Of a DNA stretch of 64,000 nt, positions 6,386-14,619 are shown piece after piece. The translations under genes and the position numbers were made by a program. The notes under the pieces were generated by a model, which saw only the letters and a program-made list of their open reading frames with translations, made no database searches and was not told where the DNA came from. Each line of letters opens with the position of its first letter. Within the stretch, counting starts at the first letter, position 1. Source of the DNA: Thermoanaerobaculia bacterium (lineage in GTDB: Bacteria > Acidobacteriota > Thermoanaerobaculia > Thermoanaerobaculales > Sulfomarinibacteraceae); the NCBI GenBank assembly GCA_027061805.1, contig JAMOWA010000047.1, positions 62,001-126,000 of the forward strand. Reading direction: 5' to 3'.

Positions 6386-9300
6386 ATGACGCACGGACCC
6401 GGACTCTGGCTTTCCAGGAATCAGCTCACGCTCCTTGCCGCCGACCTTGGGGATGTCCGGACACTCGAGGAGTTCATCGACAGGACTGCCGACTGGGCGA
6501 GGGATGAGGTCGCCGTGGGGGATCCGTGGGCCGTCTGGATGGACGCGTACCCTCCCCAGGCCGGAGACGGCGAGGACAGCGAGCCCGAGGTGCTTCACTG
6601 GCGCGCTGGCGCTCCACTCGAATCGAGATCGGATTGGAAGGGAGCTATCGATTGCTTGCGGGAGCAGCGTCCCACAGGCGTGGTCGTTGAGAGCCCCACA
6701 ACGTTCGGGATGACGGGCCACGCTCCCAGCCAGGTTGCCCTGGTTTCGGTCGGCTGGCCTTCCGGAGACGGGTGGCCCCGGCTGGCGGTCCGTCTCATCC
6801 TGCCCCTGGCACTCCGGAACGAGACGGGAACATTGCTCGTCAGCCTGGTTTCTCAGGCACTCCGGCGTGTTTCGAGGCACCTTCGCCACAGGGCGATGAA
6901 CATGATCATCACCGACAGGTATTCTCGAGATGCGTTTGAAGACCAGATCCGGCTGGTTGCCAAGAGCGCCAGGGACGCCCTGCTCCTCGATCCGGAGCTG
7001 TTCACCCGTGGCCTGGAGACGCTGACACTGCACCTGGATTCCTACCTCCGGGAGACCTTCGGTGATGCCGCGGACGAGGTGTTCCTCGAGCGCCTTCGCC
7101 GGAGCCGGGAGATCATCGAGTGCTGCACGGACCCAGGGGAGGTCCGGAACGAGTACCCGCTCGTCGCCCGGACCCTGAGGGTGTGGGCGGATCTCCTGCA
7201 CCTTCGAGGCCTGATGATCGTTCCCCGGGGCGGGGACGGGACCTCCCGGCCGGAATGGATGAACATCATCCCCGGACCGTTTGGCCGTCTGCTTCCGAAG
7301 TCCGCCCTCCCCTGGCGCGACCTCTTCGGGGAGCTGCTTCTTGTCCACTGGATCGGAAACTTCGAGGCGGCCGCTCTCGCGCTGGGGCATCCCTGGTTCT
7401 CCGGTCGGCTGAAGAGACTCGGATGGTGGAAGGATCGAGATCTGAAGCCCGAGAAACCGGAAGATTTTGCCAATCTTGTCGTCCGACTTCTTGCCAGAGC
7501 AACGTTTCCCCATAATCCCCCGCCGGAGCTGCCGTTCGGGGCGCCAGAAGACGCCTCCGAGGATCCCCAAGACGAGGTGCTCAAGTTCTGGCGTGACGCC
7601 ATGCCGGGCCCAGGAACGCACGACGAGCTCCGATTCCTCCTCGGCCGGTGGATGATGGTGCAGCAGCTGGTGGAGCTCCAGCTGGTTGACGTCAACCACA
7701 GGGCGCTGGAGAGAATGGGGAATGAGGCGACGGTCTTGCGACGCGCCCTCGATCTGCTCTGGGAGCGGTCCGAGGCGTTCTTCCTCCGCTGGATGCTCTT
7801 CCATCGGCAGTGGAGCACGCCTGGTGGCGTCGACAGGAAGCACCGCGACGATGCGCGGAAACAGGCCGGGGCATGGCTCGATGGAGAGCCCGGGCCGCCG
7901 GAGCCGCCCGAGGACGGGAGCCCGGGCCTCGTGCTCCACGTGGACTCGCTGTGGACCAACCTGTACCTGCTGCACCGGATCTTCCGGCACTTCAGGCCCG
8001 ACGACGGCCCGGAGAGACGCTGGCGGCAGCTCGCGGCGGCATTCCCGGCAGAAGCTGCTCTCAGGACCTTCCTGCGGCACCTCTGCCGCGTGACCGTCTT
8101 CGTGCTCTGGCAGATCCTGCGGCAGGAGCGGAACCCCGAACGCTTCTGCCTGGTCCCGCCTTCCGTGGACCACGAGCCTCCTCGCGAGGAAAAGACGCCG
8201 GCACGCCCCTCTCCGGGCGACGCCCGTGGTGCCGCCGGAGATGGAGCTGGCGAGGACCGACGGACCGAGGCGGCATCGTTCGAGGAGAACGGACGGCGCG
8301 AGAATCCTCCCTGGGAGCTCTCGCCGTTCCACCAGCCGGTGGGGGCCGAACGTTATGCCCGCTCGCTCGTGCACCTGATGGATGTGTTCGGTCACGAGGT
8401 GCTCCACGTGGAGCGCGAGGTGGACATCGCGGGCTACATGGAGCGCATCATCGAGTCCGAGCTCCTTCTCCACGCGGTGTCGGACTACTACCGCGACCAC
8501 CTCTTCCACCTGGTGGATCTCTGCCTGCTGGGTGACTTCCTGCTGACCTCCCGCTCCTCCACGCGGCGGGGGCATCTCTTCCGGATCCTGATGCCCCCGC
8601 CCGAGGGCAATTCCGCATCCGGCGCCCGCTTCCACATCGACGAGGTCCGGCGCCAGTGGTTCGTGGCGGCGGTCTTCCACGACGTGGGGTACCTGTTTTC
8701 CCTTCTGGCCCGGTTGCCGGCAATGATGCTGGAGCACGAGCCGCCGAAGCATCACCGGCAGCTGATCGGCTCGCTGGAGCGGGTGCTCCGCGGGGAGGTC
8801 CGGGAGCTGGAGCGCAAGATCTCCGATCTGACCGGGCACCTCTCCACCGAGACCGTCGGCCTCGATCGTGGCGTGCAGTCGGCCGTCATCCTCTGGGATC
8901 ACCTCGTGAGGGCCGCACGCAACGGCAACGACGACGGGCAGCTCGTGCGGCGGTACCTGCCCTCGCTCCGCGCCATCTGCCAGCACAGCCTCGCCTCCGA
9001 ACCGATCCGGCAGGACACGAACCCGCTCTCGTACCTCATGGTCCTCTGCGACGAGCTCCAGGACTGGGGGAGAAACCGGGTGCGCGCCAGGGAGCTGCGC
9101 CGGTACACGGTGTTCAGGAGAGCCGATGACGCCAACTGGCAGGAGCGCCGGGTTCCCATCCTGACGGAACTCTTCTTTCCCATTCAGGCTCTTGAGGGCG
9201 ACGACTTCGTGCTGACGGTGGACCATTCGGGGACCACGCGGGGCGCGCAGCCCTCGTCCAGGTCTTCGCGGATCGTCTTCCGCATCGTCCAGGTGTACGG

Positions 9301-9895
9301 CCAGGACGAGGTGGGCTACCTCAACCCCATCTACCTGTGGCTCCTCCGGGCCCAGAACCTGCAACGCCTGGTTCCCAGCTCCCGGGTGGGACGCCGGCTG
9401 GAGGTGGAGGTCGTCACCGTGACGGGTGTTCCGCAGCGGCTCCGGCGCGTGGACGCCACCTACTCGAGGATCTTCCAGGATCTCTCCGTGCGCTTTCCAC
9501 GCCTTCGCCTGGGGGATCTCCTGGACCACTTCCAGAAGATGTTCCGCCAGACCATGGAGCTGCATGACCGGTTGCACGGGGGCCGGACGAGGGCCCGACC
9601 GGGCGCCACGATCGAGGAGGAGTGTCCCACCATGCGTCCCGACCTCCAGTTCGCCCACAGGATCGAGGGTGAGATGAATCGCCAGTACCGGACGGTGGAG
9701 ATGCAGGTCTTCCGCCTGAACGATCTCTGCCACGTGGTTCCCCTCCCGGCCTTCTCCCGTGACGAGGATCTGAAAGAGGTCGCCCGCCGCTACCAGCAGC
9801 TCCTCCACGAGCTCGAGGACCAGCGCCGCCTCCGCGGCCTCCACGCCCTCCGCAGCGGCCGGATCCGGGAGCTGGCTCGGGCCCTGATGAAATGA
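6386..9895 (+). CDS. Large HD-domain protein, paralogue of the first operon gene
   Basis: 1169 aa. Residues ~500-1140 repeat the architecture of the 776-aa protein: HVDSLWTNLYLLHRI, then YYRDHLFHLVDLCLLGDFLL (near 700), the HD doublet in AVFHDVGY (near 765), a histidine in AICQHSLA (near 865) and an aspartate in VLCDELQDWGR (near 888). It adds an N-terminal ~350-residue region absent from the paralogue; this begins like a sensor domain (LEEFIDRTADWARDE) and may be GAF-related. ATG 6386 follows the receiver stop by one base, indicating translational coupling. Two HD paralogues flanking a kinase and a receiver suggest that the phosphorelay or ligand signal controls nucleotide turnover; this is inference. 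Substrate unknown. Confidence 0.85.
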   Translation: MTHGPGLWLSRNQLTLLAADLGDVRTLEEFIDRTADWARDEVAVGDPWAVWMDAYPPQAGDGEDSEPEVLHWRAGAPLESRSDWKGAIDCLREQRPTGVVVESPTTFGMTGHAPSQVALVSVGWPSGDGWPRLAVRLILPLALRNETGTLLVSLVSQALRRVSRHLRHRAMNMIITDRYSRDAFEDQIRLVAKSARDALLLDPELFTRGLETLTLHLDSYLRETFGDAADEVFLERLRRSREIIECCTDPGEVRNEYPLVARTLRVWADLLHLRGLMIVPRGGDGTSRPEWMNIIPGPFGRLLPKSALPWRDLFGELLLVHWIGNFEAAALALGHPWFSGRLKRLGWWKDRDLKPEKPEDFANLVVRLLARATFPHNPPPELPFGAPEDASEDPQDEVLKFWRDAMPGPGTHDELRFLLGRWMMVQQLVELQLVDVNHRALERMGNEATVLRRALDLLWERSEAFFLRWMLFHRQWSTPGGVDRKHRDDARKQAGAWLDGEPGPPEPPEDGSPGLVLHVDSLWTNLYLLHRIFRHFRPDDGPERRWRQLAAAFPAEAALRTFLRHLCRVTVFVLWQILRQERNPERFCLVPPSVDHEPPREEKTPARPSPGDARGAAGDGAGEDRRTEAASFEENGRRENPPWELSPFHQPVGAERYARSLVHLMDVFGHEVLHVEREVDIAGYMERIIESELLLHAVSDYYRDHLFHLVDLCLLGDFLLTSRSSTRRGHLFRILMPPPEGNSASGARFHIDEVRRQWFVAAVFHDVGYLFSLLARLPAMMLEHEPPKHHRQLIGSLERVLRGEVRELERKISDLTGHLSTETVGLDRGVQSAVILWDHLVRAARNGNDDGQLVRRYLPSLRAICQHSLASEPIRQDTNPLSYLMVLCDELQDWGRNRVRARELRRYTVFRRADDANWQERRVPILTELFFPIQALEGDDFVLTVDHSGTTRGAQPSSRSSRIVFRIVQVYGQDEVGYLNPIYLWLLRAQNLQRLVPSSRVGRRLEVEVVTVTGVPQRLRRVDATYSRIFQDLSVRFPRLRLGDLLDHFQKMFRQTMELHDRLHGGRTRARPGATIEEECPTMRPDLQFAHRIEGEMNRQYRTVEMQVFRLNDLCHVVPLPAFSRDEDLKEVARRYQQLLHELEDQRRLRGLHALRSGRIRELARALMK

Positions 9896-11495: not shown

Positions 11496-11965
11496 TCAGG
11501 GCGCGAGGCGGTTGGCCACCACCATGTCGGCCGGGAGCCTGTGGGCGAAGATGCCCACCTCGCGGGCGGTGCCACAGGCCGAGGGCTGGCCGGTGAGCGA
11601 GAAGGCCGAGGAGCAGGGCCGTGCGTACGTGCCCGTGAGCAGGTACACCATGTAGACCTGCTCGTTCACCCACGTGTCCCGGGTGTGCTGGTTGAAGCCC
11701 ATGATCCAGAACGGACACCAGGTTCGTCTTCCGGTCGGCGTGGAGATCCGCCTGAGCCCTCGGCCTGCTCCCGGTCCGAGCCGGCCACCCGGGTCACGAT
11801 CAACCGCCCCGTGGACGGGTCCTTCTGGTGGAGTTGCACGCCCTCCAGGTCCTCGAGGGCCCTCCGGACCTCCTGAACCCTGCCGGGTCCCACGGTCACG
11901 ACGATGCCGGAGCACGTGAAGGATTCCGGGGTCCCGGGGGTGGGGTCGATCCTTGGGTTCCACAT
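11496..11965 (-). pseudogene. napD-napA remnant (periplasmic nitrate reductase), frameshifted and internally deleted
   Basis: From ATG 11965 the frame encodes a NapD-like chaperone: [19 protein letters not shown], then a [17 protein letters not shown] stretch. Reading is lost after DREQAEG near 11765. About 30 codons later a different frame encodes an internal piece of NapA: a [11 protein letters not shown] segment, then [17 protein letters not shown] and [11 protein letters not shown], ending at a stop. At least one extra base (near GTGTCCGTTC) breaks even this piece. Most of NapA is missing at both ends: the Tat signal, the 4Fe4S region and the C-terminal molybdopterin domain. The locus is dead but recognisable. 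The FNR-type site upstream implies that it was once an oxygen- or NO-responsive operon. Confidence 0.88.
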
Positions 11966-12001
11966 ATTGGAAAACGATCCGGCATCAGAGTGGGGGAGTC
12001 C

Positions 12002-12015
12002 TTGACCCAGGTCAA
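12002..12015 (-). promoter_or_regulatory. FNR/HcpR-type palindrome upstream of napD remnant
   Basis: TTGACCCAGGTCAA is a perfect 6-bp inverted repeat with a 2-bp spacer (TTGACC-CA-GGTCAA), the form bound by CRP/FNR-family regulators of anaerobic and nitrosative-stress genes. Its centre lies about 43 bases upstream of the napD ATG, so a class II site would place the transcript start almost at the start codon. The site has stayed intact although the genes it served are broken. Confidence 0.65.
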
Positions 12016-12024
12016 CCGGAGGAG

Positions 12025-12056
12025 GGGGCGCAGGGGCGCAGGGGCGCAGGGGTGCG
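12025..12056. repeat. 8-bp tandem repeat, GGGGCGCA x3 plus a degenerate unit
   Basis: Three exact copies of GGGGCGCA (12025-12048) are followed by a variant. They lie in a C/G-rich low-complexity stretch running to about 12175, between the napD remnant and rnpB. No gene is visible in this stretch. Confidence 0.85.
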
Positions 12057-12196
12057 ACCCCGCCGCCCGCCCGTGCGAGGTACGACAACCCCCACCCGAC
12101 CGTGCAACCCCCACCCGTCCACCCGTGTCCCTCTCCCCCTTGCCCCTGCTCTCCCGGGCGGGCAGAGGCCGCCTTCACCGGGTGGGTGGGGGAAAA

Positions 12197-12580
<384 letters not shown>

Positions 12581-12814: not shown

Positions 12815-13636
12815 ATGAGAGTCACCTGCGGGTCGATCACCTGGCCGGTGGCCGTGCTCGTCGCCTTGGGGAGCATGGTGCCACCGGCATCCGCCGGGTC
12901 CGGAGGCGTGAGGGACGGCAGGGGTGTCCGGGTACTGCCGGGGGTGGTCTGGGAGTCCAGGGGCATCGGGGGCGGGGGGGCCTTCTTCTCGCCCTCGCCG
13001 AGCCCACACGATGCGGACCGGGTCTTCGTGTCCAGTGACATGAGCGGGGTGTACGAGACCGTGGACCTGGGACGATCCTGGAGGATGCACCGGGCGGACC
13101 GGCTTCGAGGCGGCGTCGGCACGGAGCTGCGCTTCACCGCGGATCCGGAGGTCCTCTACGGGATCGATGCTGCTGGGGACCTCCGGGTGCCCGTCCGGAG
13201 CAGCGACGGCGGTGTGACATGGACGCCGCTGGCCGGGGACCCCACCGGGGGTGAGGCCTGTTCCCTGTGGGCCGATCCCGCCTCCACGCAGCGGATCCTG
13301 GTTTCCAGCTACGACACGCTGTTCTTCTCCGGTGACGGAGGGTCCACCTTCCACCAGGTGCATCAGGCTCCCGACGAGCACGTGGCGGGTGTCTTCTGGG
13401 ACGGTGACACGATCCTGGTCGGCGCCAGGGACGGCCTCCTGGTGTCCACCGATGGTGGTGCGAGCTTCGGCCTGTCCACCATCGGCGGGATCCCCACGGA
13501 CGGGTCCATCGTGAGCTTCGCCGGGATCCGGGTGGGGGAGGCGGTCCGCCTCTGGGCCGTGACGCTGGGCGCGGGTGACGTGTGGCCCCACGTGACGGGC
13601 AGCGACCACTGCCCCGTCGGGCTGGAGCTCCGGTGA
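12815..13636 (+). CDS. Exported BNR/sortilin-repeat protein, apparently fused to the tail of exonuclease III
   Basis: 273 aa with a signal peptide (cleavage near ASAGSGG). BNR-type Asp-box repeats are visible as SSDGGVTWTPL, SGDGGSTFHQV and STDGGASFG, typical of photosystem-stability/sialidase-like beta-propellers. Full propellers are longer. After about residue 255 the sequence switches to HVTGSDHCPVGLELR, which is the terminal active-site segment (GSDHCPV) of exonuclease III. Its stop overlaps the GTG of the epimerase (GTGA), as expected for an old xth-epimerase operon. I infer a deletion joining a propeller gene to the last ~15 codons of xth near 13585. A -10-like TAGTAT lies at 12784. The protein may fold poorly. 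Confidence 0.75.
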   Translation: MRVTCGSITWPVAVLVALGSMVPPASAGSGGVRDGRGVRVLPGVVWESRGIGGGGAFFSPSPSPHDADRVFVSSDMSGVYETVDLGRSWRMHRADRLRGGVGTELRFTADPEVLYGIDAAGDLRVPVRSSDGGVTWTPLAGDPTGGEACSLWADPASTQRILVSSYDTLFFSGDGGSTFHQVHQAPDEHVAGVFWDGDTILVGARDGLLVSTDGGASFGLSTIGGIPTDGSIVSFAGIRVGEAVRLWAVTLGAGDVWPHVTGSDHCPVGLELR

Positions 13637-14619
13637 GCGCGCGCACGGCGGTGGTCACCGGGGCCACGGGCTTCCTGGGTCTGAACCTGGTGGAGGAGCT
13701 CCTGGGGCAGGGGTGGGAGGTGGTCGCGCTCCATCGGGACCCCGCCGCAGCGGAGCGGCTCGAGAGGCTCGGGACCGAGCCCGTGCGGGCCGACATCCTG
13801 GACCCGGACAGCCTGGTGCAGGCGATCCCGGAGCATGCCGATGCCGTCTTCCACGTGGCGGGTGACACGTCCATGTGGGCCCGACATCGGGACCGGCAAC
13901 ACCGGGTCAACGTGGAGGGCACGCGGAACGTGGTCCGGGCATCGATGGCCCGCGGCGTGGGCCGGCTGGTGCATACCTCCTCGGTGGCAGTCTATGGCTT
14001 CCATGACGGGGTGATCACCGAGGACCTGTCCCACCTGGGGGAGGGCTCGTGGATCACCTACCTGAGGACCAAGGCCCTGGCCGAGAGGGAGGTACGGGCG
14101 GGGATCGTGGGGGGGCTTGACGCCGTCATCCTGAACCCCGCCAACATCGTGGGGCGGTACGACATCCGGAACTGGGCGCGCATGTTCACCATCGTCGCGA
14201 GCGGGAAGCTCCCCGGGGCACCGCCGGGGGAAGGCTCCTTCGCCCACGTCCGGGCCGTGGCGCGGGCCCACGTGGCCGCCCGGGAACGGGGACGGACGGG
14301 GGAGAACTACCTCCTGGGCGGGGTGGACGCCACCTACCGCGACGTTGTGGAGCGGATCGGGGGCCTCGTGGGGCGGGAAGGGCCCGTCCGCGTGACGCCC
14401 TGCTGGCTCCTCCACCTGCTGGGGAGGGCCTCCACGGGGATCGCGCGGTTCACGGGGAAGGAGCCGGACATCACGCCCGAGGCCGTGGCCATCGTCTGCG
14501 CCCGGCTTGTGTGCAGCTCACGGAAGGCGGTGGAGGAGCTCGGTTACCGGCCGGAGCCCCTTGAGGCCATGCTCGCTGACTGCCATGCCTGGCTGGCGGA
14601 GCAGGGACTGCTCGGCTGA
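13633..14619 (+). CDS. NAD-dependent epimerase/dehydratase (extended SDR)
   Basis: 328 aa. The Rossmann motif GATGFLGLNL lies at the N terminus and catalytic Y-L-R-T-K near residue 150, with the upstream HTSSVAVYG serine strand. The pattern resembles dihydroflavonol-4-reductase-like and hopanoid-associated epimerases, so it should oxidise or reduce a nucleotide sugar or polyketide/terpenoid hydroxyl. The substrate cannot be assigned. GTG 13633 overlaps the preceding stop (GTGA), and residues 1-15 already form the cofactor strand, so longer in-frame starts are rejected. No gene is visible in the 180 bases downstream. Confidence 0.9.
   Translation: MSARTAVVTGATGFLGLNLVEELLGQGWEVVALHRDPAAAERLERLGTEPVRADILDPDSLVQAIPEHADAVFHVAGDTSMWARHRDRQHRVNVEGTRNVVRASMARGVGRLVHTSSVAVYGFHDGVITEDLSHLGEGSWITYLRTKALAEREVRAGIVGGLDAVILNPANIVGRYDIRNWARMFTIVASGKLPGAPPGEGSFAHVRAVARAHVAARERGRTGENYLLGGVDATYRDVVERIGGLVGREGPVRVTPCWLLHLLGRASTGIARFTGKEPDITPEAVAIVCARLVCSSRKAVEELGYRPEPLEAMLADCHAWLAEQGLLG

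Follow-up and report, generated by a model that had tools for sequence, protein, structure and literature searches.

How does an open reading frame come to begin as a propeller protein and to end in the last residues of exonuclease III (xth)? The frame lies in a 64,000-nucleotide stretch of DNA (the window; bases 62001-126000 of contig 47) from an Acidobacteriota relative of the order Thermoanaerobaculales that is known from its assembled genome alone (G000; a 3.10 Mb draft of 68 contigs, 96.85% complete). A first-pass annotation had read it as the scar of a deletion that removed the end of the propeller gene and nearly all of xth. The conceptual translation of 273 residues terminates in ...GDVWPHVTGSDHCPVGLELR, and the C-terminal end of the protein reads ...RLWAVTLGAGDVWPHVTGSDHCPVGLELR; translation, homologue alignment and PDB matches together confirmed that a propeller front is followed in frame by an xth end. 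The frame is intact with a third-position GC of 0.88, the N terminus looks signal-peptide-like by eye, and the Asp-box repeats in the middle of the protein are colinear with those of propeller homologues. As had also been proposed, the stop codon of the fusion (TGA, 13634-13636) overlaps the GTG start of the downstream epimerase at 13633. A structure prediction for the 273 residues from a two-row alignment gave a mean pLDDT of 49.3, which is too poor for a blade count.

Table 1. Features of the locus and its surroundings, with the evidence for each.
Feature	Position	Strand	Evidence or remark
napD/napA remnants	11496-12178	-	Pfam and nitrate reductase chain matches; beyond rnpB, within 2 kb of the fusion
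RNase P RNA gene (rnpB), class A, full length	12197..12575	-	Rfam RF00010, 291.9 bits
Fusion ORF	12815-13636	+	273 aa; propeller front and in-frame exonuclease III end
Propeller 5′ part, codons 1-264	12815..13606	+	52% identity to same-family homologue, phylum homologues, Pfam matches below cut-off
Junction zone, PHVTGSDH	13586..13609	+	Nearly the same peptide encoded by both parent genes
xth last 8 codons and stop, CPVGLELR-stop	13610..13636	+	phmmer to ExoIII C termini; GSDHCP occurrences
NAD-dependent epimerase/dehydratase	13633..14619	+	Pfam Epimerase, E 7.8e-34; GTG start overlaps fusion ORF stop
Endonuclease IV (nfo)	G000:C27:19627-20415 (outside window)		221.9 bits vs cut-off 129.65

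The non-coding gap upstream of the fusion holds rnpB, which is read from the opposite strand and is not part of the fusion. Beyond it lie remnants of a periplasmic nitrate reductase operon: a partial NapD-like stretch covering positions 4-51 of 76 (Pfam E 2.9e-8) and then, in a different frame, about 72 NapA residues that match residues 409-480 of a 924-residue nitrate reductase chain (E 7.3e-31) and end in a stop at 11496-11498. Judged from these matches, the remnants are a second decayed locus near the fusion. Elsewhere in the window, a 1169-aa open frame on the forward strand (6386-9895) has no Pfam match at E 0.01.

Pfam models give the front of the fusion matches to BNR (E 8.8e-6, 25.4 bits) and Sortilin-Vps10 (E 6.9e-7, 28.8 bits), both slightly under the curated cut-offs. 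The best homologue occurs in another genus of the same family (G016, where loci L005, L095 and L098 are one contig) and is colinear with the window protein through D264, that is through ...LWAVTLGSGDVWPLVTGSD, where it goes on as propeller and the window has HCPVGLELR instead; its own match runs to ...RLWAVTLGSGDVWPLVTGSD, followed by FEVFQGVYRLDWGEAAW and by propeller sequence up to the contig end. A search of a contig database for propeller homologues also returned one, from the same family. Across the phylum, propeller matches at E<=1e-20 were found in 5 of 396 genomes with the window's own included, and the four others hold five homologous loci (two in G206 and one each in G195, G477 and G271; one of them, L113, lacks the front at a contig end). 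Measured from stop to stop, their frames span 668 to 2097 residues, and by alignment they have about 450 further propeller residues past the junction point. Of a propeller of roughly 700 residues the window protein therefore retains about 264 (about 37%), and its last 8-9 residues are foreign to the propeller family. Compared with the BNR/Sortilin-Vps10-like secreted propellers of Acidobacteriota (L095, L109-L113), it is alike over residues 1-264, whereas about 60% of the protein is missing; a complete blade ring is not found in it. The intact homologue has one weak match among PDB sequences, HCF136 (E 0.0041). The next 148 residues of the propeller were not found in G000, in a search that had no positive control of its own.

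It may be asked whether the frame instead belongs to a conserved full-length family that naturally ends like xth, as its intact state and high third-position GC would allow. Yet all six homologous loci that could be read past the junction point extend as propeller and the tail occurs in none of them, and xth is otherwise missing from G000. The first-pass annotation had named as contrary evidence a homologous full-length protein ending in the same way; it was looked for and did not turn up. We have accordingly rejected a conserved fused family, the chance of which is practically nil.

The parentage of the tail was established as well. When the last 20 residues were compared with PDB sequences by phmmer, all 11 matches listed were ExoIII/AP-endonuclease chains (best E 2.3e-4), the best alignment covering residues 238-255 of a 258-residue chain and thus stopping three residues short of its end. 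The hexapeptide GSDHCP, encoded at 13598-13615, occurs 28 times in the six frames of 144 sequences (582 kb; overlapping loci are included and some loci are counted twice), comprising 5 copies of the junction and 23 occurrences in xth genes. A chance origin of the tail was rejected on these two results, and the earlier identification of GSDHCPV as the end of xth holds. The C-terminal GSDHCPVGLEL is common to the fusion and exonuclease III (TIGR00633), whereas about 95% of the enzyme is absent from the window locus; the fusion ORF has no PF03372 match in Pfam, the full phosphoesterase domain of about 255 residues is not there, and the product is not a nuclease. As to the rest of the genome, the TIGR00633 profile search covered 59 related genomes and finds xth in 43, among them 16 of the 19 other family members, but has no match in G000; an xth of the family used as query found none there even at E<=10. 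Two loci with PF03372 (Exo_endo_phos-like) do exist in G000, on contigs C64 and C68 away from the window contig, and with the xth model they fall below significance at E 0.001.

Where one parent gives way to the other can be set within narrow limits. The same-family propeller homologue reads GDVWPLVTGSD at the junction and others read VTGADH or VAGDDH (forms include WPLVTGSD, YPGVTGADH and YAGVAGDDH), while xth relatives have THVTGSDHCP, SEVTGSDHCP or PHVMGSDHCP at the matching place; the sequence is THVTGSDHCPVGVDL in several xth genes of the class and SEVTGSDHCPIELEV in one from the family. For the xth side, the analysis covered 30 loci (L034-L063) of 53 matches, and the C termini with the following bases were read in 23 of the 30. 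Since propellers carry PxVTGSD(H) and xth genes PHV/THV-x-GSDHCP, only 8-9 of the 15 codons first assigned to xth are found in xth alone, and the others are shared. The xth end is thus present, but in these alignments only C266-R273, and perhaps H265, is uniquely xth, the rest being common to propellers. For the same reason the join is not at 13585 as first placed; the breakpoint is, on the evidence of the two encoded peptides, within 13586-13609. The zone is a candidate microhomology, whose shared length in the parental DNA would be at most 24 nt.

Such a zone is suited to illegitimate recombination at short homology and equally to an assembly error at a short word. A propeller contig and an xth-epimerase contig could have been misjoined at the short stretch that they share, in which case the cell would carry both genes intact; the join does fall exactly at the similar 8-codon stretch of both parents, as an error in a short-word graph would, the genome is a draft, and the contig-database search returned no independent copy of the junction (the window's own record was possibly left out there). 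Against this, a misjoin would usually leave the remainders of both genes in other parts of the assembly, and neither was found in 3.1 Mb at a completeness that still could leave the missing parts in unbinned DNA, with a search that does recover xth from most related genomes. We regard a misjoin as unlikely, with a small though appreciable chance.

The gene order before the event was sought from both sides. The epimerase is 47-60% identical to its closest relatives, with alignments that begin at residues 1-5, and close epimerases (E<=1e-60) are present in 6 of the 148 genomes of the class, this one included. The intact xth-epimerase operon that the first-pass annotation proposed to look for in relatives was not found by tblastn over 143 loci, whether approached from the epimerase or from xth (upstream neighbours of the epimerase were read as ORFs in L065, L066 and L067; the start of L068 is already within the gene, and for L099 tblastn alone was used). 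Propeller and xth occurred together in 0 of 143 loci, and the presumed ancestral order of propeller, xth and epimerase in no relative. A single locus of the 143 has both epimerase and xth, on contig 26 of G007, whose epimerase is the closest one within the family; xth is intact there, the two genes are divergent and about 2.0 kb apart, and the epimerase homologue begins at the matching place (MSGLTAFVTGGTGFLGLNL). This pair weakly suggests that xth and the epimerase may once have been neighbours in the family. In the neighbourhoods of rnpB (30 of 38 matches), no xth, propeller or such epimerase was detected at E<=1e-5 save the window's own.

Some other rearrangement (an inversion, a transposition or an imported segment) could instead have set the 5′ end of the propeller before the xth tail; in its favour, no relative has the propeller near xth, or either of them beside rnpB. 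Within the class, close relatives of the propeller gene are rare, with matches at E<=1e-25 in 2 of 148 genomes, the window genome among them, so the gene itself may be imported. But the two parts are in frame on one strand, and a Pfam scan of five ORFs of the window showed no mobile-element gene; we consider this origin very unlikely.

We consider it likely that a deletion joined the propeller gene and xth at a short shared stretch, giving an in-frame fusion by loss of DNA. The colinear match to the propeller as far as VTGSD is followed by an abrupt switch to xth, the missing parts of both genes were not found in G000, the stop/GTG overlap is kept, and both parents encode the junction peptide; the intact xth near the epimerase in G007, the nfo gene of G000 and the eroded napD/napA genes nearby were also counted in favour. 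Counted against it are that one genome only, a draft of 68 contigs, carries the junction, and that no relative has the presumed ancestral order. The first-pass reading is right in outline: the truncated propeller on an xth end and the preserved downstream overlap have stood, xth and the next propeller part were not found elsewhere in G000, and a single deletion between neighbouring genes would be the probable step.

In bacteria, fusion ORFs and pseudogenes formed by deletion arise through illegitimate recombination at short homology or through replication slippage. The present locus is like them in that same-strand genes are joined at a short similar stretch with the middle missing, and in that the frame is kept at the downstream operon overlap; it differs in that the event is reconstructed from two parent families taken separately, with no sister genome that has the undeleted order. 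Judged by their titles, the papers found on microhomology deletions and gene fusion in bacterial genomes included no comparable fusion, which is not a claim that none is published. In the ancestor the propeller gene and xth would have been on the same strand, the end of xth overlapping the epimerase start as GTGA, and both genes would have had a short similar stretch encoding a peptide close to PxVTGSDH. At this stretch recombination or slippage during replication, possibly in a single step, would have removed the last 60% or so of the propeller, any DNA in between and about 95% of xth, and left a 273-codon ORF in which 8-9 xth codons follow the opening third of a secreted propeller. The epimerase would retain its translational coupling and would now probably rely on the promoter of the propeller gene. 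Judged from its composition, the fusion protein forms no complete propeller and no nuclease, and it is probably a remnant that no longer functions.

What the cell would do for the repair of abasic sites is suggested by the nfo gene, which is present in G000, so that loss of xth would still leave it an AP endonuclease; repair would then fall to endonuclease IV. In M. tuberculosis, endonuclease IV is reported to be the major AP endonuclease (PMC3731287). On dividing the 59 genomes by xth, nfo is present in 12 of the 16 without xth as against 22 of the 43 with it, a difference that is not significant (Fisher p 0.14). With xth undetected in 16 of the 59 and nfo in 12 of these, loss of xth, or its non-recovery, is not rare in the class. 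Neither gene was found in G014 (94% complete), G017 (66%), G028 (92%) and G041 (99%), a gap that may reflect incompleteness or another AP endonuclease. The deletion could also have been kept as an adaptive capture of a promoter, with the epimerase now expressed from the propeller gene's promoter and leader and translationally coupled through the inherited GTGA overlap, xth dispensable beside nfo and the fusion ORF serving as a translated leader; we hold this to be decidedly unlikely.

For annotation, the locus is a warning that the 'propeller protein' at 12815-13636 is a truncated composite. The case is otherwise one of ordinary gene and genome decay with a clean, legible deletion scar. From its scar, its likely short-homology joint and its surviving operon boundary, one can read how exonuclease III was probably lost in one lineage.
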